From contig NZ_CP155576.1 of NCBI RefSeq assembly GCF_039693965.1, forward strand, positions 682,001-746,000: DNA of 64,000 bases, written 5' to 3'. The position numbers were made by a program, and so were the translations under genes. This DNA comes from Moraxella sp. K1664 (lineage in GTDB: Bacteria > Pseudomonadota > Gammaproteobacteria > Pseudomonadales > Moraxellaceae). Positions 23,651 to 44,133 of the stretch are shown in pieces. Position 1 is the first letter of the stretch. Every line of letters starts with the position of its first letter. The notes beneath the pieces were generated by a model. The model was not told the DNA's origin, did not search any database, and saw only the letters and a list, made by a program, of their open reading frames with translations.

Positions 23651-23659
23651 GGTGGTAAA

Positions 23660-24886: not shown

Positions 24887-24892
24887 AAATAT

Positions 24893-25000: not shown

Positions 25001-25034
25001 TACTGTATCACAACCACACGAAAAGGTCAAGCAA

Positions 25035-25761: not shown

Positions 25762-25763
25762 AT

Positions 25764-25793
25764 GCCCAACTTTTTCACTAAGTTGGGTTTTTT
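25764..25793 (+). terminator. Terminator-like hairpin overlapping late promoter 2
   Basis: CCCAACTT (25765-25772) and AAGTTGGG (25780-25787) followed by TTTTTT and ATG. The predicted late start (about 25768) lies in the left arm, so only readthrough transcripts from upstream can form the stem. Confidence 0.65.
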
Positions 25794-26750: not shown

Positions 26751-26777
26751 GCCAAATCTTAATTATAGGAGTTAATT

Positions 26778-27176: not shown

Positions 27177-27210
27177 CAATCCCTAATCCATTTATCCAAA
27201 AGGAATATTT

Positions 27211-28212: not shown

Positions 28213-28221
28213 GGGGTTTGT

Positions 28222-28635
28222 ATGTACTGCACCGTAGCACAGGTTAAGGGTTTAATCCCGAGCGATACGCTCGTTGCCCTAACCCAAGACGACCCAACCA
28301 AGCAAACCGTCAATAATGATGTGATTAAAAAGGCGATTGCCAACGCAGGAGAGCGTATCAATGCTCATTTGCGTGGGCGATACCCTTTGCCGTTGAGCCA
28401 AAAGTCGGATTTATTGGAAGGGATTGCATTGGACTTGGTGCGGTACGCCCTATATTTACGCCGTCCAGATGGGGGTGATTTGCCAAGTGCGGTAACGCAA
28501 GCCTACAAAACCGCCAACAGCGATTTGGAAAAGTTGCAAAATGGCGAGCTAAGTCTTGGCATTCAGGCAACACAAAAGCCACAACCCAATCAGGTGTGGT
28601 TAGTCAAAGTGCCTAAAAGACGATTTAATCAATAG
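28222..28635 (+). CDS. DUF1320 protein (Mu gp36-like)
   Basis: 137 residues. YCTVAQVKGLIPSDTLVALTQDDP...VIKKAIANAGERINAHLRGRYPLPL...LLEGIALDLVRYALYLRRPD is the DUF1320/gp36 head-completion family, a head-tail connector protein. Confidence 0.9.
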   Translation: MYCTVAQVKGLIPSDTLVALTQDDPTKQTVNNDVIKKAIANAGERINAHLRGRYPLPLSQKSDLLEGIALDLVRYALYLRRPDGGDLPSAVTQAYKTANSDLEKLQNGELSLGIQATQKPQPNQVWLVKVPKRRFNQ

Positions 28636-28642
28636 GTGCAAA

Positions 28643-29077
28643 ATGTCAAAAACCCAAGCCATTATTGATGATTATATTGCACGGCTTAAAGAGCATATCA
28701 CAGATTTGGCAATCAGTGAAATGCCCGACAGCCCAAGCAGTTACGCCTTAAAGCACCCACAAGGCGAGATTTTGGTGCAGTACATTGGCAGTGAGTTTGC
28801 CGAGCCTGATTTGTCTGGTGGTAATTACCCCAATGCCCCACTACTTGACCGTCCGCAAAGACGGCGGATTAACATTCAATTAACCCTTGTCATTCGGTCG
28901 CTTAGGGGTGCAAAAAGCACCACCGCACGCCTTGATGACATTAGAAACGCCCTTAAAAAGTTTCGCCCTGCCGACTGTTTGACGCAAGTCTATTTTGTGG
29001 CAGAAAGTTTTATCAGCGAAACACAAGGTATCTGGCAATACGGCATTAAAACCGCCGTTGAACTTTGGGAGATTTAA
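28643..29077 (+). CDS. DUF1834 protein (Mu gp37-like)
   Basis: 144 residues. Features SYALKHPQGEILVQYIGSEFAEPD, the QRRRINIQLTLVIRSLRGAKSTTARLDDIRNALKKFRP core and a C-terminal WQYGIKTAVELWEI. The family lies next to gp36 in Mu-like phages and is thought to act at the head-tail joint. Confidence 0.88.
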   Translation: MSKTQAIIDDYIARLKEHITDLAISEMPDSPSSYALKHPQGEILVQYIGSEFAEPDLSGGNYPNAPLLDRPQRRRINIQLTLVIRSLRGAKSTTARLDDIRNALKKFRPADCLTQVYFVAESFISETQGIWQYGIKTAVELWEI

Positions 29078-29078
29078 T

Positions 29079-29327
29079 ATGAGCCAAACCAATGAAACCA
29101 AAGCAACTGAAATCACAGTAACGCTTTTAAAAACACATACACACGCAGGTCAGTCTTATCAAGCCAATGACAAATTAACTGTGTCAAAAACAACGGCTGA
29201 TTGGCTGATTAAAAACGACATTGCCGAGCTTAAAGCTGATGATAAAGCCGAACCTGCCAAACCAAAATCCAAACCAACTGCTGATGAGCAACTTAAAACA
29301 GGAGTAGCAAATGACCCAAGTGCGTAA
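29079..29327 (+). CDS. Small prophage protein (Mu gp38 position)
   Basis: 82 residues. A short N-terminal domain (EITVTLLKTHTHAGQSYQANDKLTVSKTTADWLIKNDIAEL) precedes a Lys/Pro/Ala-rich tail. GGGAG precedes the ATG at 29079; it starts one base after the previous stop. It resembles small phage proteins that read 'H.G..y..Gd.i.v....a.WL...giae', of unknown function. Confidence 0.75.
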   Translation: MSQTNETKATEITVTLLKTHTHAGQSYQANDKLTVSKTTADWLIKNDIAELKADDKAEPAKPKSKPTADEQLKTGVANDPSA

Positions 29328-30063
29328 AGATTTTAGCCGACAAGGGGCGATTTATCTTGCCGAAACACTCGGAGATGGCAAGCGTGGCGATGCTCGCTGG
29401 ATTGGTGATACTGGCACGGTATCGCTATCTATCAATGAAGAGCAAGAAGTGCGTAAAGAAAACCACACAGGTCAGCGAGCTACTTCGGTGGTGGTGCGAA
29501 CAGGGCTTGAAATCTCCATTGAGATGAATATCCGCTATGCCGATGCCGAAAACCTAGCACTCGGACTACACGGCAAAACCAGCACGGTGGTGGGTGGTTC
29601 GGTTACAGACGAAGTGTTTCCCGAAACCAAAGCAGGTCGCACCATTATCCTAGACAAAGGCGGTATCTCCAACCTTGTCATTACTGACAATGGCGGTCAA
29701 ACGCTCGACAAAGACACCCATTATCACATTCGCTCGGACAAGGGCGGTGTGATTGAAATCTTGGACTTGGCATCGTTCGCCCAGCCCTTAAAAGCCAACT
29801 ACAACTACGGTGGTAGCCAAAAACTCGCCATTTTGACCCAAAAGCCCAAACCTGTCTATTTGATGATGGACAGTATCAATACGGTGGACAACAGCCGAGA
29901 ACGCTTGCACCTGTACAAAGTGGAGTTTCAACCGCTTGCCAATCTTGGTTTGATTGACGAAAGTCTGGGCGAAATTACCTTGCAAGGCAAATGCTTGCTT
30001 GATAGTGTCTATCAGCTTGACCCTGAGCTTGGGGGCTATGGCAAGATTGAACTCTTAGATTGA
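29311..30063 (+). CDS. Major tail tube protein
   Basis: 250 residues, beta-rich. RQGAIYLAETLGDGKRGDARWIGDTGTVSLSINEEQEVRKENHTGQRATSVVVRTGLEISIEMN and the C-terminal IDSINTV-type strand resemble long-tailed siphovirus tube proteins. There is no sheath protein nearby, so the tail is non-contractile, unlike Mu. Confidence 0.82.
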   Translation: MTQVRKDFSRQGAIYLAETLGDGKRGDARWIGDTGTVSLSINEEQEVRKENHTGQRATSVVVRTGLEISIEMNIRYADAENLALGLHGKTSTVVGGSVTDEVFPETKAGRTIILDKGGISNLVITDNGGQTLDKDTHYHIRSDKGGVIEILDLASFAQPLKANYNYGGSQKLAILTQKPKPVYLMMDSINTVDNSRERLHLYKVEFQPLANLGLIDESLGEITLQGKCLLDSVYQLDPELGGYGKIELLD

Positions 30064-30071
30064 TAGCCCAA

Positions 30072-30168
30072 CGCCAAAAGCGAATTCGAGTTCGCTTTTG
30101 GCACTTCAAGTCAAATCCGACAATTTGTCGTTTTTGACTTAAATTTAATCAAAAATCCCAATTTGGGA
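30072..30168 (+). terminator. Three successive hairpins after the tail tube gene
   Basis: Stem 1: GCCAAAAGCGAA/TTCGCTTTTGGC (30072-30101). Stem 2: AAGTCAAA/TTTGACTT with inner CGACA/GTCG (about 30108-30140). Stem 3: ATCCCAA/TTGGGAT (about 30153-30168). Only stem 2 has T-rich flanks. The cluster probably attenuates transcription or protects the 3' end of the abundant tube message. Confidence 0.55.
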
Positions 30169-30196
30169 TATTTACCCAAAAAAATGGAGCAATAAA

Positions 30197-30673
30197 ATGG
30201 CAAAAACCCTAAGCCCTGATGAACTTGCCGAACTTGAACACCAAGAACAAGAACAGGCACAAAGCCAAGCCCAAAATGACGAGTTCGCCCAAGACCTGAG
30301 TATTTTATTTCCCAACCAGTCTCTACTGCTTGGTGGCAAAACCGTCAAACTCAAAGAATACGCCTTTGTAGAATGGCTTTCACTTCGCCAAACTTACGCC
30401 CCTTTTATTGCCAAATTTACCACGCTTATGACCGCCAATGATGATGTGCTGGTGGACGATGTGCTTGAATTTTTTGAAAATGAATTTGCCGATTTAAAGG
30501 GCTTATTGTTGGCAAGCATTGACGAGTCTGCCGACTTCTTGGACGGCTTGACCCTAACTGAAATGGAAAGTCTCATGCTTGGTTGGTGGCAGGTCAATAA
30601 GCATTTTTTTATGAAAAGCGTGGTGCGAGCCGTCCGAAAAAATCAAACACAAAGCCCGTCAGTTGGGGTGTGA
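30197..30673 (+). CDS. Tail assembly chaperone (gpG-like)
   Basis: 158 residues, acidic N-terminus (ELAELEHQEQEQAQSQAQNDEFAQDL), then VKLKEYAFVEWLSLRQTYAPFIAKF and a helical body. It is placed between tail tube and tape measure like lambda G. Near its end the codons CGA AAA AAT contain A AAA AAT (30637-30643), in the right phase for a -1 shift into the next frame. Confidence 0.82.
   Translation: MAKTLSPDELAELEHQEQEQAQSQAQNDEFAQDLSILFPNQSLLLGGKTVKLKEYAFVEWLSLRQTYAPFIAKFTTLMTANDDVLVDDVLEFFENEFADLKGLLLASIDESADFLDGLTLTEMESLMLGWWQVNKHFFMKSVVRAVRKNQTQSPSVGV
30637..30643 (+). promoter_or_regulatory. -1 ribosomal frameshift site
   Basis: A AAA AAT in the zero frame (codons 30635-30637, 30638-30640, 30641-30643): an X XXY YYZ heptamer. 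The downstream -1 frame stays open for 77 codons. Confidence 0.8.
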
Positions 30674-30876
30674 TTATCCAAACCCTTGTGGCAAATGGAC
30701 ACAATTTTGGGGCGATTGGTGGCTACACAGAGCGACAAATTGAGTTGTTTTATCACACCATTATCAAGCACCAAAACGCCCAAAAAGCCGACACCATTGA
30801 AGCGGTTAATCTTGGCTTTAATGGCGGTAAAGAAACCACGCAGTATCTAAAAGAATTGAGAAATGGGGCTTTTTAG
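30643..30876 (+). CDS. Frameshift extension of the tail chaperone (gpT-like)
   Basis: A -1 shift at 30637-30643 continues without a stop as SNTKPVSWGVIIQTLVANGHNFGAIGGYTERQIELFYHTII... to 30876, giving a G-T fusion of about 226 residues. The extension frame has only a weak GTG at 30670 and no good ribosome-binding site of its own. In lambda the rare GT product recruits the tape measure to the tube protein. Confidence 0.8.
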   Translation, partial: SNTKPVSWGVIIQTLVANGHNFGAIGGYTERQIELFYHTIIKHQNAQKADTIEAVNLGFNGGKETTQYLKELRNGAF

Positions 30877-30900
30877 CCCTATTTTTATAGGAAAATAATT

Positions 30901-32145
30901 ATGGCAAATAACAACCTAGAACTGGCGTTACGCATTCGTGCTGATGGCGCCCAAGCGGTCAGTCAATTAAACAGCTTGCAAAGCAACATCACGCAAACAG
31001 GACAGGCGACCACCACCACCCAAAATCAATCCGCCCAAGCGACAAGCCAAACTACCCAAGCAATCAATCGCCAAGCCCAAGCCCTAGAAAATGCGTCTGA
31101 CAGTCTTGATTTAAGCCAAGAAATACGCCAAACCCAAAGGCTTGGGCAAGCAATGGACGACACCGCCCAAGCAACCCAAAACACGGTCAATATCAACGAG
31201 CGAATGGAGCAATCCTTACGCTCGCTCACGCCCCATTTTATGAGTTTGATTGGTCTATCAGGTGGGCTTTTGACCGCCAGCCTAAACGCTCTTGAAAAGT
31301 CAGCACAGCTTAAAAATCTCTCCACCATTTCAGGCATGAATGTGGAGCAGTTTCAGTATTTTGCCGTTGGTGCAAAGTCGGTTGGCATTGAAATGGACAA
31401 ATTGTCCGATATTTTCAAAGACACTCGGGATAAAGTGGGCGACTTTTTGACAACGGGCGGTGGCGAACTCCAAGACTTTTTTGAACAAATCGCCCCACAG
31501 GTGGGTGTAACCGCCGAGCAGTTTCGCCATCTAAGTGGTGCGGATGCATTACAGCTGTATGTAAACAGTTTAAGAGAAGCCAATGTCTCTGAGAATGAAA
31601 TGATTTTCTATATGGAAAGCATTGCCGATGAAGCATCGGCACTTTTGCCCCTTTTGAATGAAGGGGGCGAAGGATTTAGACGCTATGGCGAACAAGCACA
31701 AAGAGCAGGAGCGATTTTAAGCCAAACAGCAGTCAATGATGCCCTAAAAGCCAAATCTGCCATTAGTGAATTTAGCAATGAAATGCAGGGTGTGGGCAAT
31801 CGGATTGTGGTTAATCTGATTCCTGCTTTGCAATTTGTCAGCCAGCACCTTGACGCACTTGTTAAGGCAGGGATTGTGGTGGCAAGCGTATTTGCAGGGC
31901 GAATGACGGCGACTTTTGTTGCAACTACTGTTGAGATGATTAAATTGCAAGCCCAAACGATGATGACTGCCGTGGCTCAGGCACGGCTTGGCGAAGTGTC
32001 GTTATTGACCGCAACTCGGCTCAACGCCCTAACAATGGCATCACGAATGCTGACGGCAAGCGGTGGCTTGATTGGGCTTGGGGTGGCGGTGGCAAGCATT
32101 GTCGCTGGCTTTCTGCTCATGAAAAATCGTCAGACGATGTGGTAA
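30901..32145 (+). CDS. Tape measure protein, N-terminal part (frame broken)
   Basis: 414 residues. A Gln/Thr/Ala-rich coiled N-terminus is followed by a helical TMP region (LKNLSTISGMNVEQFQYFAVGAKSVGIEMDKLSDIFKDTRDKVGDFL) and hydrophobic segments near the end (LIGLGVAVASIVAGFLLM). The reading frame then shifts: ATG AAA AAT CGT ends at TAA 32145, while the -1 frame HEKSSDDVVISLDDQRKS continues as the next entry. One more A in the run 32122-32126 would fuse both into about 1,458 residues. Confidence 0.85.
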   Translation: MANNNLELALRIRADGAQAVSQLNSLQSNITQTGQATTTTQNQSAQATSQTTQAINRQAQALENASDSLDLSQEIRQTQRLGQAMDDTAQATQNTVNINERMEQSLRSLTPHFMSLIGLSGGLLTASLNALEKSAQLKNLSTISGMNVEQFQYFAVGAKSVGIEMDKLSDIFKDTRDKVGDFLTTGGGELQDFFEQIAPQVGVTAEQFRHLSGADALQLYVNSLREANVSENEMIFYMESIADEASALLPLLNEGGEGFRRYGEQAQRAGAILSQTAVNDALKAKSAISEFSNEMQGVGNRIVVNLIPALQFVSQHLDALVKAGIVVASVFAGRMTATFVATTVEMIKLQAQTMMTAVAQARLGEVSLLTATRLNALTMASRMLTASGGLIGLGVAVASIVAGFLLMKNRQTMW

Positions 32146-35100
32146 TAAGCCTTGATGACCAAAGAAAATCGGTGGCTGAGTTAAAAGCGGAATACAGTCA
32201 GCTTTCTGAAATCCAAAAACGGGTTAAATATGGCGAACAACTGGATAAAATCAATGAACTCACAAAGGCATACCACAAACAAGCCGATGCCCTAGAAGGG
32301 GTTATTTTGGACAGTAAGGGGTTTTATCGTGCCAGCATTGAGCAACAAGACCAGATATATGCTCTCGTTCAAGCCTATAAAAATGGCACGCTGTCAGCCG
32401 AACAACTTGCCAACGAAATGAATAAATTGGGCTTTGTCAGCGATGAGTTAAAGCGTAGAATTGATAAACAAGCCACCGCCACCCAGCTTGCCAAAAACGA
32501 GCTGGACAATGCCAATGATGTATTATCCGCCTATCAAGGTAAAACTATTTCAGCTACATCTGCCACCAACGGGCTGTCTAGTGGGCTTGACAATGTCGGC
32601 AGATCCGCCGAAAAAACCACCGCCAAGATTGGCGAATTGTCCAAGCAGTATAAGGATTTGATGGAGCAGACCAAAAAAGATATTTTTGAGCTTGAAATGA
32701 CCAATGCTCTTATTCAAAAACACGGGTTTGAGCCAGAAAGAGCGAGTGCCATTGCCAAAGCAAGAAGTGCCAAAGGGTCGGACTTAACCAAAGACGACAT
32801 TACCTTGATTGACAGACATTTGTCCGCCCAAAACAAACATGCCGAATTAACCAAAAAAGACGAACCCAGCACTACAAGTGCCAAAAAATCTACCACCCCA
32901 CGAGTGGTGGGCATTGTGGGCGATACAGGCATTGGGGCGACTCACTTGGACATTCGCCGTGCAGACGGCAAAAAGCCCACTCAGTCCGACCTTGACCGTT
33001 TTCGGGCAGGGGGCAAAAAGCTGACCGATTACCGAATGACATCAGGCTACGGCTGGCGAAATATCAATGTGGCAGGTGCGTCCAAATTTCATAAAGGCTT
33101 GGACTTTGCCATTGCCACAGGCACAGAAATTACCACCACCGTCCCTGTCAAAGATGTTAAAAAATGGTATGATAAAAAAGGTGGCGGTTATGTGAGTGAT
33201 GTTATTTTTGAAGACGGCTTGGTAATAAAACTACTCCACCAAGACCCGTCTATGCAACGAAAAGTAAGCACAGGGGCAAGCGGTGGCAGTAGTTCTCCCA
33301 CCAAATCCACCGCCAAAGCCGACAAACCTGCCTATTCATATAGCCCTGCCGACATCAAGGCAATGCAAAAAGTTCAATCGCTGGTGCGTGGCTCAGAACT
33401 TGCCAACATCGCCCAAAAACACGGCGTGCCTGTTGAGTTATTGGAAGGCTTGATGATGCAAGAGTCTCGTGGGCAACAATACGCCAAAAGCCATACAGGG
33501 GCGTTGGGTTATTTTCAGACCACAAGCGGATTTCGTCAGCAATGGGGACTTAGCCGTGATGACAGCTTTGATTTAATCAAATCAGGCACGGCAACGGTCA
33601 AATCGCTTGCCCAAGCCTTTAAGCATTTTGGTAACTGGGAAGATGCCATTCGCTCACACAATGCAGGTGTGGCAGGTACAGAGAAATTTAACAAAACAGG
33701 CAAAGTTGGCAATAGCAAGGCTCGCAATGATGAAGTGCGTGAGTATGTGCCAAAAATCGCCAAATGGTCAGCGTGGTTTGGTGATGACCGCCTAAATAAT
33801 CCAAAAATCCAAGATGACGGCAAAGACCACCGTGCCTTTGTTGACGCTCAATTTCAAGCCGAACAAGAAGCCAAACGCCAAGCCGAAGAGCGAGCCAAAG
33901 AGCAAGCAGAACTGGCACGCCAGCAAGCCGAAAAACGAGCTGAGCTGTTGTATGAATTTGCCAGCGACCCAGTTAAGCTAAAAACCGATTATGAGAAAAA
34001 AGTGTCCGAAATCAAGTCGGCAGGGTTTGAGCCAGCCCAAGAAACCGAGCTTTTACAAAAGGCGGAGCAAGAATACCAAGATAAGCTGACCCGTCGCCCA
34101 GAGATTTTGGAGCGAGCGTTGGGGGCGGTTAAACAGCTTGAACAGGACTTTTTGGGGGCGACAGTCAGTGAGCATGAAAAAACCATGCACGACATAGAGC
34201 ATAAATATGATGACTTACTTGCCGACATCAACGCCTTAAAAGAGCTTGCCATTGACCCTGTACATTTGGCAGAGCTGACCGATGCCGAGCGTAAAATTCG
34301 GCTTATCATTGACAAAGAGAAGCTAAAAGCCGAATATGACAATGCAATGGCGGAGCTGGATAAAATGCAAGCAAGCAAACAACAACAGCTTGATATTTTA
34401 CAACAACGCTATGATAACACCAACATGACCGCCCACGAATTTCACACCCAAAAACAGGCGATTGACACAGAAATAAACCCCCAATTACAAACAATGGCGA
34501 CTTATGCCCAACTACTCGCCCAAAGTCTAGGCGATGCCTTTTCGGTGGAAAAATTAGGGCTATTTATTGACGGCTTAAACCAAGCTCAAAGCAGTTTTCA
34601 GCAGTTTTTACCAACCGCCGAACAGTTAAATGACCGCATTACCAATGGGCTAACAGACGCATTTTTTGCGTTTGCAGACGGCACAAAGTCGGCAGAAACC
34701 GCCTTTCGTGAATTTGCGTCCGCTTTCTTTCGTGAGATTGCTCAGATGATTTTAAAGCAGATGATTTTTAACGCCATTTCAACCGCAGGTAAAGCAGGTG
34801 GTGGCGGTTGGGGCGGAGCGGTGGCTGGCGTGATTGGTTCGGCTTTTGGTGGCAAAGGCTATGCAACAGGTGGCTATACAGGCAAAGGCGGAAAATACGA
34901 GCCAGCAGGTATTGTTCATAGAGATGAATTTGTTATCAGAAAAGAGATGACCAACCAAGTGGGGGCAAAAGAATTTTTGGCACAATTTAACCGCTACGGC
35001 ATGAATGCCATTAAAGGCTTGCAAGGCTATTCAAGTGGTGGTTTGGTAGGGGCAAGTGTGCCACAAATATCCGCTCCAAGCATTCAAGCCCCAAAATTGT

Positions 35101-35276
35101 CTAGCCCTAGCGAAAAAATCGCCCAATCCACCAGTTTTAATGCCAATCAAAACTTTTACCTTGTGGACGACCCCAGTCGGATTTTAGACACGCTTAATTC
35201 ATCACAAGGGCAAGAAAACTTAGTGGTAATGATGAGCCGAGACCCTGAGAAGTTTAAGACGGCTCTGCGGTTGTAA
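32139..35276 (+). CDS. Tape measure protein, C-terminal part with transglycosylase domain
   Basis: 1,045 residues as read from GTG 32139, but truly the continuation of the previous frame. There is an M23-like stretch ([30 protein letters not shown]) that keeps HxxxD but lacks a clear HxH. A lytic transglycosylase domain follows ([34 protein letters not shown], with Glu in QESRG), then long coiled coils, and the tape-measure C-terminus [28 protein letters not shown]. Murein-degrading domains help DNA entry through the cell wall. Confidence 0.87.
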   Translation: [1045 protein letters not shown]

Positions 35277-35279
35277 ATG

Positions 35280-35323
35280 TTTAAAACAGGTTAAAAGACG
35301 GTTTAAAAAACTTAGGTTATGAT
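35280..35323 (+). promoter_or_regulatory. Late promoter 3 (PP equivalent)
   Basis: TTTAAAACAGGTTAAAAGAC at 35280-35299, identical to that of promoter 1, 18 bases, then TATGAT at 35318-35323. It precedes the distal tail block. Confidence 0.75.
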
Positions 35324-35338
35324 AGCCTAAGTTTTTTA
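35305..35338 (+). terminator. Terminator enclosing the -10 box of late promoter 3
   Basis: AAAAAACTTAGG (35305-35316) and CCTAAGTTTTTT (35326-35337) flank TTATGATAG, so the -10 box is in the loop. The late start (about 35330) would lie in the right arm; only readthrough RNA from the tape-measure gene can fold it. Confidence 0.75.
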
Positions 35339-35344
35339 TTTTAC

Positions 35345-35475
35345 AGCTAGCAAAATTAAATTTTACTACACAAACCACTCGCCCTAAGCTTGTCAAAAAT
35401 TCGGTTTCTTCTATGGTTTGACAGGCTTTTCATGAGTGGAAAGCGTAGCACTTTTTCATTTTGCAGAGTGTACTT
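35345..35475. repeat. Dispersed intergenic repeat, diverged copy A
   Basis: It shares with 61649-61775 the order CAGCTA - TTTTACTAC - AAACC - CCCTAAGCT - GGTTT - ATGGTT(T/C)GACAGG - CATGA - TTTTGCAG. The ends AAACC...GGTTT are partly inverted. It lies inside the prophage between late promoter 3 and the first distal tail gene. Confidence 0.6.
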
Positions 35476-35491
35476 AAATTTTGGAATAAAA

Positions 35492-36325
35492 ATGCCACAT
35501 GACATCGGTTTTGTAACTGCCCAAGACGGCAAACCTGCCCATTATCAAATGCTCCAAAAAATCAAGGAATTAGCCGTCCGCTCGGGCGACTGGGAGCTTT
35601 TGCGTGAAGATACTAGCACCAAAAACCACGAGATTATCTTAAAGGGGCGTGGATATAGCAAACAAGAAGAGATTTTTGTTGGTGTGCGTACTTATCAAAA
35701 CCCACAAGCCGATTATTATAATTTGGCGGTGGCGACTTTTACAGGCTATGTGCCGTCCAACCCTTTTGACAATCAGCCGTCTGCCGTGTTAAGCGGTGTG
35801 CCAGCCCATAACCAACGCATTGATTATTGGCTGACGGTAAACCCACAACGCATTGCGTGTTGTATGAAAGTTGGTACGCCTGTTTATGAGCATTTCTACA
35901 TTGGCAAGTTTTTGCCCTATGCTCGCCCCAGTCAATGCCCTTATCCTGTGGTGTGTGCAGGTATGTTGCACGGCGTGCCAGCCACTCGTTTTTCGGACAC
36001 CAACCACAGTTTCCCTTATAAAGGCAACCGCAAAAATTTGGCAATGCGGTTTAACACAGGGGTTTATCTAAATGTAGAGTGCCATCCGTATAACTCATCA
36101 CCCCTAACGAGTTCACGCCAGTTAAGAGATACCAATGGCGTGTATCCACTTATGCCGATTATTTTAACGGACAATAATGGCATTTATGGCGAGTTTGACG
36201 GTGTGCGGTTTGTCAGTGGCTTTGATAACGTAACCGAAAATATGTGTGGCGATGACTGGGTGGTACTACAAGACGTGGGGCGGACGGGCTTTAACGACTA
36301 CATCGCATTGAGGTTAGATAAATAA
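35492..36325 (+). CDS. Distal tail-associated prophage protein A
   Basis: 277 residues. No named family recognised. It starts at 35492 (MPHDIGFVTAQDG) with GGA before the ATG. The in-frame extension to 35390 runs through the dispersed repeat and is not believable. Central part EEIFVGVRTYQNPQADYYNLAVATFTGY and C-terminal WVVLQDVGRTGFNDYIALRLD suggest a beta-rich virion protein. Its layout resembles the next gene, so the two may be old duplicates. Confidence 0.75.
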   Translation: MPHDIGFVTAQDGKPAHYQMLQKIKELAVRSGDWELLREDTSTKNHEIILKGRGYSKQEEIFVGVRTYQNPQADYYNLAVATFTGYVPSNPFDNQPSAVLSGVPAHNQRIDYWLTVNPQRIACCMKVGTPVYEHFYIGKFLPYARPSQCPYPVVCAGMLHGVPATRFSDTNHSFPYKGNRKNLAMRFNTGVYLNVECHPYNSSPLTSSRQLRDTNGVYPLMPIILTDNNGIYGEFDGVRFVSGFDNVTENMCGDDWVVLQDVGRTGFNDYIALRLDK

Positions 36326-36334
36326 GGGGCAAAA

Positions 36335-37231
36335 ATGGCGTATTGTACAGGTCAAGCAAATAGCCATCGGCAACTGGCAAATATCTTGGTGGAAAAATGC
36401 CAAGTTCATGGGTGGGTATGGCAACAGGGTATTTTGAGTAAAAATAACTGGTTTATCAAAATTTCAGTGCAAGAAAATCCCATGTCAAATCAAGGTATTA
36501 TTATAACAGGTGGTACGGGTCAGCAGGGTGCGACACTGGTCAATGCGAGTGCAACATCGGTAAGAATGGGTAGTCCGCACACGTCTGAGCTTTTGATTAA
36601 ATTCCCTGTGTTGTTTCATTTATTCATCTTTGAAAATGAGGTGTATTTAATTGCAAAATCCGACCATGACAAATATTATTATCTGGCATTTGGTGGCTCT
36701 GAACTGGTCAATCAAGCTCAGGCGAATGGGCTGTGGCTATCGGCAACAGCATGTTATCACGGATACTGGAGTCAATCCATAAGTATTTATGAAACAAATG
36801 GCGGTGCTGGCGGTGGTGGCAATCCTTCTGCGGTTGCTCCGTTTTGGAATAGGAGTGGGTTTAGTGAAAATTGGTCAAATGCCGTGATTTGTCATGGGCT
36901 AAACGATACACTTTGGTCATCTGGCAGTAGTATCGCTTATGCGACGTTTGAGCCACTCATCAGCCGTCTGCCCACCGCTCATTTTGCTGACAGTCCGCTA
37001 TTGCCTTACAACGTCTATCTGCAACGCCCCCAAAACAAACTTAGTCTTATCGCCCAGTTTGACAACGCTCGTTTTTTACGCATTGACAATCACGAACCCG
37101 AGCAAATCATCACATTGGGGCATGAACGCTGGATGATTTTTCCGTTTTTTAGAAAAAATATCGCCAGTAGAAGTCGTGGTTATGGAAATCACACAGGCAC
37201 ATTTGGCTGGGCAATCCGCTACGAGGGCTAA
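36335..37231 (+). CDS. Distal tail-associated prophage protein B
   Basis: 298 residues. The first 60 residues share the shape of protein A's start (a 'LVEKCQVHGWVWQQGILSKNNWFIKI' helix-strand unit). Later YLIAKSDHDKYYYLAFGGSELV and C-terminal WMIFPFFRKNIASRSRGYGNHTGTFGWAIRYEG correspond in position to protein A's ending. A Gly-rich loop (NGGAGGGGNPS) lies midway. Probably a tail-tip structural protein; receptor binding is possible but unproven. Confidence 0.7.
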   Translation: MAYCTGQANSHRQLANILVEKCQVHGWVWQQGILSKNNWFIKISVQENPMSNQGIIITGGTGQQGATLVNASATSVRMGSPHTSELLIKFPVLFHLFIFENEVYLIAKSDHDKYYYLAFGGSELVNQAQANGLWLSATACYHGYWSQSISIYETNGGAGGGGNPSAVAPFWNRSGFSENWSNAVICHGLNDTLWSSGSSIAYATFEPLISRLPTAHFADSPLLPYNVYLQRPQNKLSLIAQFDNARFLRIDNHEPEQIITLGHERWMIFPFFRKNIASRSRGYGNHTGTFGWAIRYEG

Positions 37232-38953
37232 ATGGCAATCATACAATACAGCGTAACGCAATCAGGATTTTTGCTTGATAATCAGTATCTAAGCCAAGAC
37301 TTAAATGGCTTGACTGGCGAGTCGTGGTATCCATTTTCTAATGCTCAAAACAGCCGTGTTTCTGACGGTTTGGCATATCGTTTAACCAATCATCTGCCCA
37401 TTACCACCGACCCACGCACGATAAAGCACATCATCGCAAAAAGCTATGTGGACGATTTTTATCATCGTATCCACATTGACAACTTGCAAGCGGATTTGGG
37501 CGTGGTGGCAAGTAAGCAGGTCATCAATTTTGCCCTTTGGAATGCCTATTTTGAGCCGTTGGACTTTACACGCATTGACGGCTTGGCGGTGGGAGCGTAT
37601 TTTGAACCACACGATTTGCCACCACTGATTTTTGAAGCATTGCAGGAGCGGACTTGGCAACTGCATATTTTACCAGACGGCGATGCCCGTTTAAGCCTTG
37701 ATTTGGCATGGCGATTTATCGGCAAACACACCAAAAACGCTTATCAAGTAGCAAGTCAGTTAAGCGGTCAGCGTGTCATTGGTTTTGCGTGGCTGATTGA
37801 CTGGGATAAGGGCGTAGCCGAGAGCCTTGCTTGGCACACCGACATTTTGCAATCCCAAACAGGACACGAGCAACGCCGTAGTTTACGCCTTGCCCCACGC
37901 CAAACACTTGATGTGAATTTGCTTTTACACGGTCAAGAACGCACGCTGTTTGACTTAGCAGTGACCGCTTGGGCGAGCAAAAATTTTGTTGTGCCTGTGT
38001 GGTTTTATCAAGCCTATTTGACGACAAAAATTAACAGTCAAAGCCGTGTCATTCTTTGCGATACCACCCAAATCCCTTATGCTAATTTTCAATACGTCAT
38101 GCTGATTAAAGACGCATTTAACTACGAAGTGAGCGAAGTGGGGGCGGTCAATGATGGTCAAATTGTCCTAAAACGCCCCTTGCAAAACGCTTGGGAGCGT
38201 GGCACGCAAATTTTTCCTGCTCTGTCTGCCCAATTAAACGGCTTGCCAAGATTGACTAAGCACAGCAGTCAAGTAATGCGAACCGCTGTCAGCCTACAAG
38301 CGGTGGACGGTGTGAACCTGCCAGACCCTGTCAAGCCTGACACATTTAGGGGTTATCCAGTCCTATCCATTGCCCCCAATGAAGTGGATAATTTGACCCA
38401 CAGTTATGAACGCTTGCAACAACAACTGGACAATTTGTCAGGTCGCCCCCTTTTGGTGGACAGTGCCAATGCCAGTTTTTCCTTATTCCAGTATCGTTGG
38501 TTTTTGGCAGGAGCTGAACAGCACCAAGAATTTTATGCGTGGCTCCATCTATTGAACGGACGGCAAAAAGCGGTGTGGCTACCGACTTTTAGCGGTGATT
38601 TACAACTTGTCAATGCCATATCGTCAGGCACACGTTTTGACGTGGCAAACTGTGGCTATACCAAGTTTGGGCAAGGACAAAACGGGCGACAATACATTTA
38701 TATTGAGTTGCACGGTGGCGAGCGGTTGTATCGCAAAATCATATCATCGCAGGAGCTTGGGGCGACAGAGCGTTTGACTGTTGATGAGTCATTTTTAAAT
38801 AATATTGCCACAAACCAAGTCAAACGCATGAGTTTTATGAGCCTTTGCCGTCTTAACAGCGACACTGTTAATATCGTTCATCACAATGACATTCAAGGGC
38901 TATCAACGGCAGAGATGACTTTTCGGGGCATTAAAGAACAGGAGAATAGTTAG
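37232..38953 (+). CDS. Distal tail structural protein
   Basis: 573 residues, beginning directly after the previous stop (TAAATG). The second half (FRGYPVLSIAPNEVDNLTHSYERLQQQLDNLSGRPLLVDSANASFSLFQYRWFLAGAEQHQEFYAWLHLLNGRQKAVWLPTF) is a recurring module of siphovirus-like proteins upstream of BR0599-type tail proteins. Likely part of the tail tip or distal tail ring. Confidence 0.78.
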   Translation: MAIIQYSVTQSGFLLDNQYLSQDLNGLTGESWYPFSNAQNSRVSDGLAYRLTNHLPITTDPRTIKHIIAKSYVDDFYHRIHIDNLQADLGVVASKQVINFALWNAYFEPLDFTRIDGLAVGAYFEPHDLPPLIFEALQERTWQLHILPDGDARLSLDLAWRFIGKHTKNAYQVASQLSGQRVIGFAWLIDWDKGVAESLAWHTDILQSQTGHEQRRSLRLAPRQTLDVNLLLHGQERTLFDLAVTAWASKNFVVPVWFYQAYLTTKINSQSRVILCDTTQIPYANFQYVMLIKDAFNYEVSEVGAVNDGQIVLKRPLQNAWERGTQIFPALSAQLNGLPRLTKHSSQVMRTAVSLQAVDGVNLPDPVKPDTFRGYPVLSIAPNEVDNLTHSYERLQQQLDNLSGRPLLVDSANASFSLFQYRWFLAGAEQHQEFYAWLHLLNGRQKAVWLPTFSGDLQLVNAISSGTRFDVANCGYTKFGQGQNGRQYIYIELHGGERLYRKIISSQELGATERLTVDESFLNNIATNQVKRMSFMSLCRLNSDTVNIVHHNDIQGLSTAEMTFRGIKEQENS

Positions 38954-38954
38954 A

Positions 38955-39794
38955 GTGAGTTTTGCCGACTTTGAGACATCATTACAAAACGCCCAACCAA
39001 TCCGCCTGTATCAGTTTAGTCGTGGGGCATGGCGGTGGGGCTACACGTCAGCCGACCGTGATGTCAGATTTCAAAACATGAATTTTGTGTCGCTTTTGGG
39101 TGGGATTAAAGATGACGGCATTCGCCAAACGCAGGACAGTGGGGGTGATTTATTGACCTTAACCGTGCCGTCATCGTGCGATTTGGCTCAAATGTATCGG
39201 CATTTTGCCCCTGCCCAAACGGTCAATTTGACCATTTTTGATTTACATTATCCCGAGCTTGCCAGTACCGAGCAAGGGGCATATTTGGCGGTATGGAAAG
39301 GCTTTGTGGTTGGTGTCAAATTTGTGGGTGACCACACTGCCCAAGTGCAATGCCAAAATTTATCCGTATCGCTTGAACGCACAGGACTTAGAAAAACTTG
39401 GAGCAAGCTGTGTTGTCATCAGCTCTATGGCAAGGGGTGCAACCTAGACAGACAGGCATTTATGAGCGAGATGACTGTTGTGGCGGTGGACAGCTCATTT
39501 GTAGATGTGGTTTTGCCAAGCGATAAATCATCGGACGATTATTTTACAGGCGGTTATGTACAATGGTCGTCCGAGTACGGCATTGAACAGCGTGGCATTG
39601 AACGGCAACTTGGCAACCGCTTGCAACTGTTTGGCGGTGTACAAGGCTTGACGGTAGGGCAAAATATCAAGGTTTTTGCAGGGTGCAACCGCACCTTTAC
39701 CGCTTGCCAGAGCAAATTTAATAATACTGATAATTATGGCGGTAGTCCACACATGCCCCACAAATCGCCTTTTGACGGCACACCAATTTTTTAG
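38955..39794 (+). CDS. Phage BR0599-family tail tip protein (DUF2163-like)
   Basis: 279 residues from a GTG. The C-terminal part has CCHQLYGKGC ... VFAGCNRTFTACQSKFNNTDNYGGSPHMPHKSPFDG, the BR0599 family ending. The cysteine set recalls lambda gpL, whose C-terminal domain binds an iron-sulphur cluster; a cluster here is an inference. Acts in tail-tip assembly next to the hub protein. Confidence 0.85.
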   Translation: MSFADFETSLQNAQPIRLYQFSRGAWRWGYTSADRDVRFQNMNFVSLLGGIKDDGIRQTQDSGGDLLTLTVPSSCDLAQMYRHFAPAQTVNLTIFDLHYPELASTEQGAYLAVWKGFVVGVKFVGDHTAQVQCQNLSVSLERTGLRKTWSKLCCHQLYGKGCNLDRQAFMSEMTVVAVDSSFVDVVLPSDKSSDDYFTGGYVQWSSEYGIEQRGIERQLGNRLQLFGGVQGLTVGQNIKVFAGCNRTFTACQSKFNNTDNYGGSPHMPHKSPFDGTPIF

Positions 39795-39804
39795 GAGATA
39801 AAAT

Positions 39805-42213
39805 ATGTGGGTACAAGTCGCCTTATTTGTTGCATCACTGGTCATCAGCTATCTTTTACAGCCCAAGCCACCCCAAGCTAAACCGTCCGCTTTTGATGAT
39901 TTTAAATTTCCAACGATTGATGACGGCACGCCACGCATTGTCGTGTTCGGCGATGTGTGGATAACTGATTGGTGTGTGATTGGGGCAGGTAATTATCGCA
40001 CCAGTCCTATTGTCAAAAAACAAAAAGGGCTGTTCGGCTCAAAACGCCAAACGGTGGGGCATCGCTATTTGATGTCGCTTCACATGGGGCTGTGCATGGC
40101 AATGGATGAGCTTTTGCAAATCAAGGTTGGCGACCGTGTGGCATGGCAAGGAGTTGGTGGCAGTGCCAACCAAAGCCATGTCCGCATTCACAAGCCTGAT
40201 TTGTTTGGCGGAGATGATAAAGAAGGGGGTATTGACGGCACGCTTATCATCATGAAAGGGGCAAGCGACCAACAGCCATTACCGCAATTACAACGTATGT
40301 ATAACAGCCCAGTCCCTGCCTATCGTGGGGTGGTAACGTTCTTTTTTGACGGCATGGTGTGTTCAGGTTCGCCCTATCCAAAGGCGTGGTCGTTTCGTGT
40401 TTGTCGTACGACTTGCGATTGGTATAATGAAAAAGCAACGATTTGGCTGAACGATGACAACGGTAATCAGATTAAGGCAATGAACCCTGCCCACATTATT
40501 TTTGAAGCCCAAACCAACGAAGATTGGGGGCGTGGTACAGACTTAGGACAGCTTGACCTTGACAGCTTTAAACAATGTGCTGATATTTTGCATAATGAGC
40601 GGTTTGGTATGTGCATCGCTTGGAAACGCCAAGATACTTTAAAGCAGTTTATTCAGCAAATCCTTGACCACATTGGCGGTGCGTTGATGATTGACCGCAC
40701 CACAGGCTTGTGGAAACTTGTGCTTATTCGTGAAAGTGATAGTCCTGACAGCTTGCCAAGTTTTGACTACGGCACGGGCATTTTACGCATTGAAGAAGAC
40801 AACAACTCGTCCAATGATTTAGTAACCAATCAGCTTGTTGTCAGTTATACAGACCCTGTGAGTAATGAAACTCGCACTGTCCGTACCGAAAATCTCGCCA
40901 GCATTCAACGAGACGGCATTATTTTGCAAAATAAAACTTATGTCGGACTACCAACAGCCGATTTGGCAGGACGTGTCGCTAGCCGTGATATGAAAATTAT
41001 CCAATCTCATCTAAAAAAGTTTAAAATCGTGTTAGACAGACGAGCCTATGCCCTGCAACCTGCATCTGATTTTGTGCTAAAAATCCCCCAAAGGGGCATA
41101 GAAAGCATCATCATGCGAGCGGTGCGTGTGGAGCATAATGAGATGACAAATGGCGAAATCATGGTAACGGCGGTGCAAGATGTATTTGGCTTGCCCCGTA
41201 CGACTTATCAGCAAGTTCAGCCAAGCCTATGGATACAGCCCAATCTTAATCCAGAGCCGATTGTGCATTCACGGCTTTGGCAGTTGCCTTATACGCATTT
41301 GCTGGACAATTTTAGTCATGAACAGCTCAAAAATGCCGATGATTATGTCCTTGTGTTGGCAGAACGCCCAAACAGTCTGCAACAGTCTTTTGAAATTTGG
41401 GCTAAAACCACCGATGAACAAAACGAACACTATGCAGGGCAAGGGCAATTTGTCGCTCGTGCAGTAGTGCAAGAGGCTGTTTTACCAACCAGTCAAGTTA
41501 CCATATTGACACTTGATGCAGTGGATATGGCAAGCATCGGTCAGTGTGCATTGCTGAATGATGAGATTGTGCAGATTGTACACATTGAGCAATCTCAATA
41601 TCAAATTCATGTCAAACGTGGCTGTATAGATACTGTGCCGACTGCTCATGCCCAAAATTCGGTCATTTGGCTGTATGGCGACATGGCGACCGTTGCCGAG
41701 CGAGCTTTTATGGCTAATAAAACCGCTCAAATCAAACTACTTTCGCAAACTTCGCAAGGTACGTTGGATGCGTCAAAAGCGACAGTAAATTCGCTTTTAA
41801 TAACCAACCGCCACGTTCGCCCCTTTGCCCCTGCTAATGTGCAAATCAATGAATTGTCTTACCCCAATCAAATCCAAACCCTAAACAAAATCTCGTGGGT
41901 AGGACGCAATAAAATCAGCCAAGATGTCGCCATTTTAGACCAAACTGCTCCACACCAAGAGCCTGAAACAGGGGCAACGGTTAGCCTAATTATCTCAAAG
42001 AAAACAAGTGCTAACGGCTCATATCAACGAGTGGTGCAAAAAGACGGCATCACAGGCTTTTTTATTGACATTGTCAAAGAAAATCCCAACAATGACGAAA
42101 CAAAACTCGTTGCTAATCTTGAAAATGCAGTAATGATAAAAGTAGAGCTGTGGGCAATCAAAGACGGCTTGGAGAGCTGGCAACGGCACAGTATAGAAAT
42201 GGCGGTGGTGTAG
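39805..42213 (+). CDS. Tail tip / baseplate hub protein (gpJ-like)
   Basis: 802 residues. An N-terminal hydrophobic segment (VQVALFVASLVISYLLQPKPPQ) and GTPRIVVFGDVWITDWCVIGAGNYRT are typical of gpJ-like tail hub proteins of phages with BR0599 partners. Hub domains occupy the middle and fibronectin-like strands the last 200 residues. As no separate fibre gene is seen, host recognition may lie here or in proteins A and B. AGGAG precedes the ATG. Confidence 0.85.
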   Translation: MWVQVALFVASLVISYLLQPKPPQAKPSAFDDFKFPTIDDGTPRIVVFGDVWITDWCVIGAGNYRTSPIVKKQKGLFGSKRQTVGHRYLMSLHMGLCMAMDELLQIKVGDRVAWQGVGGSANQSHVRIHKPDLFGGDDKEGGIDGTLIIMKGASDQQPLPQLQRMYNSPVPAYRGVVTFFFDGMVCSGSPYPKAWSFRVCRTTCDWYNEKATIWLNDDNGNQIKAMNPAHIIFEAQTNEDWGRGTDLGQLDLDSFKQCADILHNERFGMCIAWKRQDTLKQFIQQILDHIGGALMIDRTTGLWKLVLIRESDSPDSLPSFDYGTGILRIEEDNNSSNDLVTNQLVVSYTDPVSNETRTVRTENLASIQRDGIILQNKTYVGLPTADLAGRVASRDMKIIQSHLKKFKIVLDRRAYALQPASDFVLKIPQRGIESIIMRAVRVEHNEMTNGEIMVTAVQDVFGLPRTTYQQVQPSLWIQPNLNPEPIVHSRLWQLPYTHLLDNFSHEQLKNADDYVLVLAERPNSLQQSFEIWAKTTDEQNEHYAGQGQFVARAVVQEAVLPTSQVTILTLDAVDMASIGQCALLNDEIVQIVHIEQSQYQIHVKRGCIDTVPTAHAQNSVIWLYGDMATVAERAFMANKTAQIKLLSQTSQGTLDASKATVNSLLITNRHVRPFAPANVQINELSYPNQIQTLNKISWVGRNKISQDVAILDQTAPHQEPETGATVSLIISKKTSANGSYQRVVQKDGITGFFIDIVKENPNNDETKLVANLENAVMIKVELWAIKDGLESWQRHSIEMAVV

Positions 42214-42215
42214 TT

Positions 42216-42259
42216 TTTAAAATAGGTTAAAAGACCACTAATCAGATGGGCGATAAAAT
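42216..42259 (+). promoter_or_regulatory. Late promoter 4 (Pmom equivalent)
   Basis: TTTAAAATAGGTTAAAAGAC at 42216-42235, one mismatch to promoters 1 and 3, 18 bases, then TAAAAT at 42254-42259. No GATC site is near, so the Dam/OxyR control of Mu mom is not expected. Confidence 0.75.
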
Positions 42260-42281
42260 GCACGACTTAAAACTGGGGACG

Positions 42282-42357
42282 ACAACTTGTTGGAGCAAGT
42301 TGCCGACCTTCTGACAGACAAGTGTCAAAAGCCAAGCCCAGCCGTTGTGTACACAAC
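42282..42357 (+). promoter_or_regulatory. com leader with three hairpins
   Basis: About 145 bases of leader separate promoter 4 from com. CAACTTG/CAAGTTG (about 42284-42303), TGACA/TGTCA (about 42313-42328) and GTTGTG/CACAAC (42344-42357) can each fold. They may control translation or RNA life; no T run follows, so they are not terminators. Confidence 0.45.
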
Positions 42358-42410
42358 ACGGCTATTTTAGCAAAAATGCAATACCATTGCAAAATTTAAA
42401 TAGGTTATTT

Positions 42411-42611
42411 ATGAACTTTATCACTTGTCAATCTTGCCATAAAAAATTACTTAAAATCGCAAACTTTGACCGTTTGCAGGTCAAATGTCCACGTTGCAAG
42501 GCAATCAACAACTATCAAGCTAATCTGAACGCTGTAAGCATCCTATCCGAAGTCCACGAGACTCCAAACAACAATGGAGAGTCTCATGGAGCAACCCCAA
42601 AAGCCCAATAA
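42411..42611 (+). CDS. com: Com-like zinc-finger translational activator
   Basis: 66 residues. CQSCHKKLLKIANFDRLQVKCPRCKAIN is the C4 zinc finger of Mu Com, which binds mom mRNA and opens its ribosome-binding site. As in Mu, the stop overlaps the next gene, here by 26 bases, but the next gene is a methyltransferase rather than mom. Confidence 0.92.
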   Translation: MNFITCQSCHKKLLKIANFDRLQVKCPRCKAINNYQANLNAVSILSEVHETPNNNGESHGATPKAQ

Positions 42612-43440
42612 ACCCCACAGCCAATCGCCTTTGCCCTTCATCGGACAAAAACGGCAAATTATCCAAGCCTTTCGCAATACCCTTAACCGCATTATTCCAA
42701 ATGACGGTCAAGGGTGGACGGTGGTGGATGTGTTTGGTGGCAGTGGCTTACTTGCCCACAACGCCAAACACCTAAAACAGAAGGCAAGGGTCATCTATAA
42801 TGACTTTGACAATTTTAGCCAAAGACTTTATCATATCCACGACACCAATCGCCTACGCCAACAGCTTTATGCCATTTTAGAGCCGTTACCACGAGCCAAA
42901 CGCATTGATAATGATGTCAAGGCACAATTATTGGAGGTTATCCAAGCCTTTGATGGCTTTGTGGACTGCCATAGCGTTTCCACTTGGCTACTGTTTAGTG
43001 GTAAGCAAATCAGCCACATTGACGAACTGCCTAAGCACGAGTTTTACAACACCATTCGTAGGAGTGATTATCCAACGGTGGGCGGTTATTTGGACGGCTT
43101 AGAAATCGTGTCGGAGAGCTTTGAAGTCTTGATGCCTAAATTTTATCATCAAGATAAAACGCTGTTTATCCTAGACCCACCTTACCTACGCACCAAGCAA
43201 GAAGCCTATGGTTTGGGTGAGTATTTTGGTATGATACAGTTTTTAAAGCTGATGAAGTGGGTAAGACCGCCGTATTTGTTTTTTAGCAGTACAAAAAGCG
43301 AATTTATGTCGTATATGGATTATGTCAAGGCACATGAGCCTGAAACATGGGAGCGTGTGGGGGATTTTGAAAAATTATCTTTTATCGCTCATGTCAATAA
43401 CAGCTCAAAATATGAAGATAATATGGTGTTTAAAATTTAA
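42586..43440 (+). CDS. DNA adenine methyltransferase, D12 class
   Basis: 284 residues. Motif X-like FIGQKR at 18-23, motif I VFGGSG at 49-54 and motif IV DPPY at 197-200. Target is unknown; relatives methylate adenine in short sites such as GATC. It would protect phage DNA from host restriction. The start ATG 42586 has GGAGAG upstream, both inside com, so Com could gate it. The prophage destroys the host's type III methyltransferase yet brings this one. Confidence 0.92.
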   Translation: MEQPQKPNKPHSQSPLPFIGQKRQIIQAFRNTLNRIIPNDGQGWTVVDVFGGSGLLAHNAKHLKQKARVIYNDFDNFSQRLYHIHDTNRLRQQLYAILEPLPRAKRIDNDVKAQLLEVIQAFDGFVDCHSVSTWLLFSGKQISHIDELPKHEFYNTIRRSDYPTVGGYLDGLEIVSESFEVLMPKFYHQDKTLFILDPPYLRTKQEAYGLGEYFGMIQFLKLMKWVRPPYLFFSSTKSEFMSYMDYVKAHEPETWERVGDFEKLSFIAHVNNSSKYEDNMVFKI

Positions 43441-43477
43441 GACCACAAGTAGAAACCGTATTGCGTAATTTGCAATA

Positions 43478-43517
43478 AAAAACCGCTTAATTTATCTCAA
43501 AAATTAGGCGGTTTTAT
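43478..43517. terminator. Terminator at the prophage right end
   Basis: AAAACCGC-TTAATTT pairs with AAATTA-GGCGGTTTT, with TTTATTT after. On the minus strand the stem is followed by TTTTTTATT, so it stops both methyltransferase RNA and mod RNA entering the prophage. Confidence 0.8.
43490..43503 (-). repeat. Right-end inverted motif (candidate transposase site)
   Basis: On the minus strand it reads TTTTTGAGATAAAT, the counterpart of the left-end motif at 8974-8987. It sits in the loop of the terminator at 43478-43517. Confidence 0.6.
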
Positions 43518-43890
43518 TTCGCTCGGCATCAATCATTTTTACCGCTCTTTGATAGGCGTTTTTTAAGTGTTTTAATACTTCTAAATTATCGCCTTTGATA
43601 AGCAGGTTTTGGCTATTGATATTTTGGGGAGCTTGATTGTGCGATTGATTTTCGCCAAATAAGGTAATGGGCGGACAATCACGCAAATAACAGGCATAGG
43701 ATTTGCCAAGCCAGTTTAATTGATAAAATTCACGACTGCTAACAATGTCTGATGATTGCAATTCGCTTGCCATTTTTTCAGGTAAAAAATGACCGTCTTT
43801 ATCAAAACAGTTGGGGAAATGCTCTTTTAAAAGGGTAAGTTTTTCGTTTTGGACGGGGCTATTTTGGTCAAAAAGTTTTTGGATAATCAT
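43504..43890 (-). pseudogene. mod: Type III methyltransferase Mod, 5' fragment
   Basis: 128 codons. The first 119 (MIIQKLFDQNSPVQNEKLTLLKEHFP ... NLLIKGDNLEVLKHLKNAYQRAVKMI) are the N-terminal domain of Mod, the 'IKGDN.E.L..L' pattern being typical. The last eight (DAERNKTA) are prophage DNA ending in a chance stop. It lacks all catalytic motifs; these are at 7394-8944. Its ATG follows AAGGGG at an eight-base distance, within a hairpin. Confidence 0.92.
43532..43536. repeat. Target-site duplication, right copy (ATCAT)
   Basis: Partner of 8940-8944. Removing everything from 8945 to 43536 restores an open mod reading frame across the junction (...VKMIYIDPPY...). Confidence 0.75.
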
Positions 43891-43893
43891 GAC

Positions 43894-43920
43894 AAATCCC
43901 CTTTGATGAATTGGGGATTT
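43894..43920 (-). promoter_or_regulatory. Hairpin masking the mod ribosome-binding site
   Basis: In the mod message AAAUCCCC (from 43920-43913) pairs with GGGGAUUU (43901-43894), which contains the GGGG of the ribosome-binding site, three bases before the ATG at 43890. Confidence 0.6.
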
Positions 43921-43938
43921 TGGGCGTGGTTATGGCTT

Positions 43939-44026
43939 AATTGCGAATTGCGAATTGCGAATTGCGAATTGCGAATTGCGAATTGCGAATTGCGAATTGC
44001 GAATTGCGAATTGCGAATTGCGAATT
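43939..44026. repeat. Tandem heptamer tract, 12 x TTGCGAA
   Basis: Twelve perfect TTGCGAA units occupy 43941-44024, with AA before and TT after. On the mod-coding strand the unit is TTCGCAA. The tract lies between the -10 box and the start codon of mod, and so would be transcribed as leader. Perfect tandem units of this kind change in number by slipped replication. Confidence 0.97.
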
Positions 44027-44054
44027 ATTGTAATGGCGGTTTTGATAATGTCAA
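44027..44054 (-). promoter_or_regulatory. sigma70 promoter of mod-res
   Basis: Minus strand: TTGACA (44049-44054), 16 bases, TACAAT (44027-44032). The start is expected near 44020, a few bases into the heptamer tract. Confidence 0.75.
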
Positions 44055-44133
44055 GGGGCATGACGTTTTTTTCCAAAAATTTTTTTAACCTTTTATTTTA
44101 GCACAGTTTGACAGTATTGCAACACACCCAAAA

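Follow-up and report, generated by a model that had tools for sequence, protein, structure and literature searches.

The window, i.e., the whole stretch of 64,000 nucleotides of the Moraxella sp. K1664 genome that was analysed, carries a Type III mod gene that is split at codon 121 by a Mu-like prophage. The N-terminal part of mod is found in a 128-aa ORF on the minus strand (43504..43890), which consists of 121 codons of Type III Mod followed by 7 prophage-encoded codons; residues 6-121 of this fragment align with the N-terminal part of EcoP15I Mod (E 1.4e-35). The remainder of the gene, the catalytic and C-terminal part with the N6_N4_Mtase and T3RM_EcoP15I_C domains, is a 516-aa ORF (7394..8944, minus strand), and the 978-aa Type III restriction subunit gene res (4461..7397, minus strand) is intact. 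The prophage (approximate limits 8947..43531) has the direct repeat AAATGAT at both junctions and contains MuA-, MuB- and Gam-like genes, as well as phage tail and packaging genes. Directly after the mod fragment, the prophage end contributes a terminator-like hairpin followed by a U-run (43479..43515, minus strand). The first-pass annotation of this DNA recognized a mod gene and attributed to its leader a control of restriction. The 121 residues of the Type III Mod N-terminus bear out the gene assignment, although only a prophage-split fragment is present; the control of restriction is lost from the picture, because with mod cut at codon 121 the leader cannot now control restriction in this genome. 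In Moraxella lacunata NCTC10359 (G005), an intact 667-aa mod and a 974-aa res lie immediately downstream of the same leader, and another genome (G018) has an intact mod-res pair behind the same kind of leader, with a different recognition region and different chromosomal neighbours.

Several other features of this genome should be mentioned. The prophage end places a Shine-Dalgarno (SD)-like AGGG six bases upstream of the internal mod ATG (8944), and translation of the 516-aa catalytic fragment may therefore continue. A D12-class adenine methyltransferase gene lies at the prophage end beside the broken mod (42574-43440). The genome also has a second Type III mod (L026, near C1:215873) with a long in-ORF CCAA tract, the frame of which has no ATG before the tract and looks out of frame (OFF), and a third Type III mod-res pair, which lacks a repeat (L029, C1:1399740).

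Heptamer tract and leader frames in the window

The tract in the mod leader (43939..44026, minus strand) is a perfect heptamer array. Its earlier description as 12 perfect TTGCGAA units is correct: there are 12.6 copies in 88 bases at 100% match, i.e., 12 full units and a partial one, which read TTCGCAA on the coding strand. This is the sole site with at least four consecutive units of this heptamer in the 2.78-Mb genome. In a heptamer-array scan of genome contigs, the matches listed were mostly cyanobacterial arrays; IMG/VR gave two unrelated matches to the query, and phages gave none. An origin of the tract as a mobile or attachment sequence of the prophage was rejected, since the prophage is Mu-like with a transposase and its junction lies 400 bases off, inside mod. 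A second long heptamer array in the same genome, (TTGAAAA)19 (L216:16048-16180), is flanked by a SulP-type transporter gene and, downstream, by a small ORF; a TTGACA-like promoter site stands immediately 5' of it, and stops in every plus-strand frame make it untranslatable on that strand.

The TTGCGAA tract had been called non-coding, with a number of units that cannot change a reading frame. The first statement is not supported and the second is wrong: an ATG at 44061 opens a leader ORF of 43 codons, which spans the tract and terminates at the TAA 43932-43930 (43930..44061, minus strand, frame f0, the frame of mod). A weak SD-like GGAA is seen by eye before this ATG (44071..44074, minus strand). 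Because 7 is not divisible by 3, one unit gained or lost moves the leader frame by one base. Shortly after the tract, frame f2 ends at a TAA (43937..43939, -49 relative to the mod ATG) and frame f0 at another TAA (43930..43932, -42), and f1 is the sole frame open from the tract to mod in this genome, with its TGA (43887..43889) overlapping the mod ATG as ATGA (all on the minus strand). At the 12 units present, the leader ORF is in the f0 class, predicted to be OFF under the coupling proposed below; 11 or 14 units would place it in f1, by arithmetic from -171 nt. Across three related genomes, the tract has 12 units here, 15 in M. lacunata and approximately three, in an interrupted tract, in G018. 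The leaders with 12 and 15 units are nearly identical apart from the number of units and belong to the same frame class; the leader ORF of G018 is in f2.

Homologous mods have the repeat in the mod reading frame itself, as in N. gonorrhoeae (CCCAA) and other Moraxella mods (CCAA), and with a misplaced start codon the present tract would be another case of classical in-ORF phase variation. We regard this as extremely improbable: in this genome, M. lacunata and G018 alike, a TAA that lies past the tract and 42 nt upstream of the mod ATG closes the mod frame at any number of units. Short of programmed frameshifting, a stop at this place between the tract and the mod ATG led us to reject the in-ORF reading.

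The mod ribosome-binding site (RBS; GGGG at 43898-43901) is contained, in the predicted fold, in an 8-bp hairpin, AAATCCCC / GGGGATTT (43894..43920, minus strand), in agreement with the first-pass annotation. The fold of the whole leader in the window is nothing special (z -1.28). The masked RBS, together with the difference of 12 versus 15 units between close relatives, supports the earlier suggestion that a repeat-number switch sits in the mod leader and outside the mod frame, unlike classical tracts.

Repeat-bearing leaders among mod homologs and CGCAA arrays

Using the N-terminal fragment as a query, we searched 22 genomes of the genus, 369 of the class, 140 of a second family and 348 of the own family; with the threshold of E <= 1e-15, 38 mod homolog loci were obtained. 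The second family is taken here to be Pasteurellaceae, an assumption based on an uptake-signal-like sequence and a Bibersteinia match. A repeat lies within the leader in 17 of the 38 homologs, with units of 4, 5, 7 or 8 bases: TTCGCAA (three loci), GCAAC or AACGC (three), CTTGC or CCTTG (four), and AATC, GCACC, AGCAC, ACAGC, ACAAGCCT, GCCAT and AGCCTAC (one locus each). The central recognition region of Mod is variable between relatives. In another mod subfamily (L018, genome G002), approximately four copies of a 13-base unit, AAGTACATGTAAT, are located upstream of the start.

In 17/17 repeat-bearing leaders, which are related to one another and hence are not 17 independent cases, f1 has no stop after the tract until one that overlaps the mod start (ATGA in 16 and TAATG in one), and f0 and f2 end 22-75 nt before the mod start. 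Dinucleotide shuffles of each leader segment are expected to produce this pattern in 2.5 of the 17, and the product of the shuffle probabilities over 13 sequence clusters is about 10^-11. The pattern was found in 2/20 repeat-less homologs (G786 and G548; 20 of 21 were scored, G016 being excluded for a poly-C run and no clear start) and in 21 of 174 background genes, which are ORFs with 200 codons or more in a sample of 16 x 20 kb taken from the own genome. The ATGA start overlap is common, occurring in 54% of the 174 background genes; therefore, the signal is the open frame and not the overlap alone. It should be noted that the closed f0 is not independent evidence, because the mod ATG had been assigned downstream of an in-frame stop; the independent part of the frame pattern is f1 versus f2, 17 to 0. 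The claim of graded control made earlier is not supported: exactly one of three frames reaches the mod start in 17/17 leaders, a pattern that predicts on/off control with a period of 3 units. Among the repeat-less homologs, the two alleles (a and b) of G721 have a 10-codon leader ORF with its own SD that ends exactly in ATGA, and we read them as the frozen ON form. The leader ORF of the repeat-less G004 ends at -21 and is read as the frozen OFF form; its f1 ends in TGATG, but f2 is open as well, and it was not scored as having the single open frame.

Several observations would suit a tract that is only a passenger, left over from an older mod with in-frame phase variation, prone to slippage and without effect even in the intact relatives: the gene is broken in this genome, G018 retains only approximately three units in an interrupted tract, and the repeat is lost in G004. 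In such a relic, a single frame open to the mod start would not be expected to persist, along with the masking of the RBS, across 13 divergent leaders; moreover, unit length and sequence vary by lineage, which speaks for repeated renewal. We therefore consider the passenger reading improbable.

The RBS is unusually strongly paired in the predicted folds of these leaders. Folded from the tract end to +36, the SD hexamer has an average pairing probability of 0.85 in the 17 leaders compared to 0.51 in the 174 background genes (p = 1e-6, one-sided Mann-Whitney test on the means of 13 clusters), where the background consists of Moraxella genes, whereas most leaders come from the second family. G502 is an exception, with a pairing probability of 0.49. 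The hairpins differ in sequence among the leaders, and in many of them the loop contains the start codon, with the 3' arm belonging to the coding sequence. Both off-frame stops are 5' of the predicted innermost SD hairpin in 17/17 leaders; here the hairpin is counted from its innermost arm, which is one way to define its start, and the outer pairs start further 5' in some leaders. When hairpin arms were cross-paired between leaders, own pairs had on average -12.1 kcal/mol, compared to -7.9 kcal/mol, and the own arm pair ranked first in only 5/13 cases, because the Shine-Dalgarno arms are alike.

Published methylation states of Bibersteinia trehalosi, a case that came from the literature after the coupling model was formed and to which the model was not fitted, allow a comparison with the frame pattern. 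Strain 192 has an active Type III system, whose 15 CGCAA units end 43 bp upstream of the mod ATG, and the Type III systems of strains 188 (17 units) and 189 (14 units) are inactive, the mod ORF and 1 kb upstream being otherwise identical to those of strain 192 (PMC4996451). Strain 190, with 15 units and other upstream base changes, is inactive as well, and the relevance of the repeat was called unclear by the authors (PMC4996451). One of our genomes, G421, is very probably B. trehalosi, as judged from an MPN(STAQH)n ORF with ACAGC repeats of the kind described in excerpts of that paper (PMC4996451). Its Type III mod is preceded by 18 CGCAA units with a gap of 42 nt; the leader start AATAGGAAAACAAA-ATG is in the sole frame leading up to the mod start (with its TAA stop at +10), and the closed frames end at -24 (f0) and -37 (f2). 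Coupling at 18 units implies that multiples of 3 are coupled, so that 15 units should be on and 14 and 17, which form one class, off. Three of the four published strains fit this expectation; strain 190 does not.

CGCAA leaders extend beyond the mod set. We read 13 loci from 13 Pasteurellaceae-like genomes with CGCAA arrays and found six leaders (L227, L229, L230, L231, L233 and L236), two in-ORF arrays (L228 and L235), three long intergenic arrays (L224, L225 and L234) and two loci that are cut by a contig end or unclear (L226 and L232). L233 is the mod leader of G496, already counted among the 17, and L236 probably belongs to G521, judging by copy number. In each of the other five leaders (L227, L229, L230, L231 and L236), exactly one frame is open, with a stop at +1 to +11, and the two closed frames end 24-59 nt upstream. 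In 4/5 of them, the stop of the open frame is at +5 to +11 and not at the overlap, and in three the open frame is f2; thus, the overlap rule is looser than in the mod set, which counts against the coupling model. Matches to the EcoRI methylase family were found downstream of L231 and L236, and the gene behind L230 is similar by eye; of the other two downstream genes, one is the B. trehalosi mod described above, and one had no Pfam match in the piece searched.

Leader starts and the conserved TTGACA

The 5' end of the tract is visible in 12/17 leaders (four others are at contig ends and one is N-masked), and in 12/12 of these an ATG with GGA or AGG upstream opens the leader ORF into the tract. 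This ATG is within the tract or 3-9 nt from it, except in the heptamer group, in which it is 35 nt or more from the tract and has a weak SD; this counts against the coupling model. From their frames, three of the 12 leaders are predicted to be ON (G437, G496 and G438) and nine OFF, and the mod frames are truncated in three of the predicted-OFF cases, namely, the own genome, G419 and G403.

The promoter noted earlier, TTGACA-16-TACAAT, is present as a sigma-70-like candidate with 11/12 matches (P2; 44027..44054, minus strand), and RNA from it would start inside the tract; should it be the sole promoter, this would revive the graded reading. The TTGACA is conserved: in 16/17 readable rows, which include classical mods and, in the case of G018, a row read by eye, it is matched at 5 or 6 of 6 positions 26-38 nt before the tract, with G419 as the exception. 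The -10-like hexamer paired with it is on or after the leader ATG. RNA from the conserved TTGACA would lack the leader ATG, and this is the main doubt about the coupling model. Another candidate promoter, P1, is upstream of the leader ATG (TTGCAA ... TG-n-TAAAAT, 9/12, extended -10; 44095..44122, minus strand), and its -10 (TAAAAT, 44095) is retained in relatives. The classical in-ORF mods (N. gonorrhoeae and those with CCAA tracts) have the TTGACA at the same position, beside their start ATG; since translation of these genes must start at that ATG, the TTGACA promoter cannot be their only promoter.

Because of the TTGACA, we retain as a rival the explanation that RNA starts at TTGACA-16-TACAAT in the first unit, and the length of the untranslated tract tunes folding or stability of the mod mRNA in 7-base steps, giving graded control. 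An 11/12 promoter directly before the tract and the preservation of TTGACA across families are as expected under this explanation, and the untranslatable (TTGAAAA)19 array of the same genome also follows a TTGACA promoter-like site. Non-coding repeats with graded effects are known, i.e., the hmw1A/hmw2A heptamers (PMC2651432) and the tlpB G-repeat (PMC8295292). Conversely, tuning by length leaves unexplained why one frame is open to the mod start in 17/17 leaders, why the leader has an ATG with an SD, and why B. trehalosi is off with 14 and 17 units and on with 15 (PMC4996451); the classical in-ORF mods share the TTGACA position although they are translated from the adjacent ATG. Given the frame pattern and the B. 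trehalosi states, graded control is not our first choice, and we consider it unlikely, albeit the strongest of the rivals.

Proposed coupling and comparison with known systems

Starting from the observed sequence features, their reappearance across 17 leaders and the disruption of the gene, we propose that the tract sets the frame of a short leader ORF and that translation of the Type III mod is coupled to this ORF. Transcription would begin upstream of the leader ATG, the leader would then be translated, and slipped-strand gain or loss of a unit, presumably within a culture, would shift the leader frame. In one frame in three (ON), leader ribosomes would pass and melt the RBS hairpin, and, with the leader stop overlapping the mod ATG, they would reinitiate on mod. 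In two frames in three (OFF), ribosomes would stop before the hairpin, which would remain closed. The window, at 12 units, would be in an OFF frame, and 11 or 14 units would be ON, with the switch now disconnected by the prophage. We consider it likely that the number of units sets the leader frame, and hence the coupled translation of mod, in an on/off and not a graded manner. With somewhat less confidence, we favour the view that such leaders form a distinct and widespread class of phase switches, in which the repeat-set leader frame decides, via termination-reinitiation through an RBS hairpin, on the synthesis of an unchanged methyltransferase, with units of 4, 5, 7 and 8 bases, in Type III mods of two families and in EcoRI-like methylase genes.

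If this is true, many methyltransferases that are annotated as stable, with a harmless repeat upstream, are on/off switches, and the state of the switch can be read from the number of units modulo 3. Surveys for repeats only within the annotated methyltransferase ORF would miss such switches; the corresponding annotation rule is to seek one frame that is open from the repeat to the start codon.

The phasevarion Type III mods of Haemophilus, Neisseria and Moraxella catarrhalis belong to the same EcoP15I-like Mod family and likewise have a repeat at the 5' end, expected slippage and one productive frame in three. The repeat of the phasevarion mods is in the mod frame, whereas here it is in a separate leader ORF with a start and a stop of its own, and mod is equipped with a separate ATG and RBS; it is the coupling that would change, not the product. 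In H. influenzae, a short repeat-bearing ORF, lex2A, precedes lex2B and is thought to govern it. A repeat-bearing short ORF ahead of a second gene is thus common to both loci, lex2 being a glycosyltransferase locus; a literature search for lex2A returned no more than the repeat and its application as a marker. Leader-peptide coupling is known to involve an ATGA stop-start overlap and an RBS hairpin opened by the upstream ribosome. The difference from such coupling with a masked RBS is that the leader frame depends here on a mutable repeat; criteria for translational coupling are given in PMC3711429.

The hmw1A/hmw2A genes of H. influenzae likewise have 7-bp units upstream of the start codon, the number of which alters expression (PMC2651432); in the excerpts of that paper, these repeats are described as promoter-located and graded, without coupling through a leader ORF (PMC2651432). 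No repeat-framed leader coupled to a methyltransferase appeared in the literature searched, which consisted of excerpts (PMC2651432, PMC6479036, PMC6265453, PMC3711429, PMC8295292, PMC4996451, PMC6211672, PMC7394358 and PMC12707154) and did not extend to the REBASE survey of Type III repeats (DOI 10.1093/nar/gky192). M.Btr192II of B. trehalosi (group C) has the same leader ORF anatomy, with a CGCAA tract ending 43 bp before the mod ATG and expression that differs with the number of units (PMC4996451). It differs from the present locus in having a pentamer instead of a heptamer and an intact gene. If the coupling holds, the published puzzle of the silent B. trehalosi Type III system becomes directly testable.
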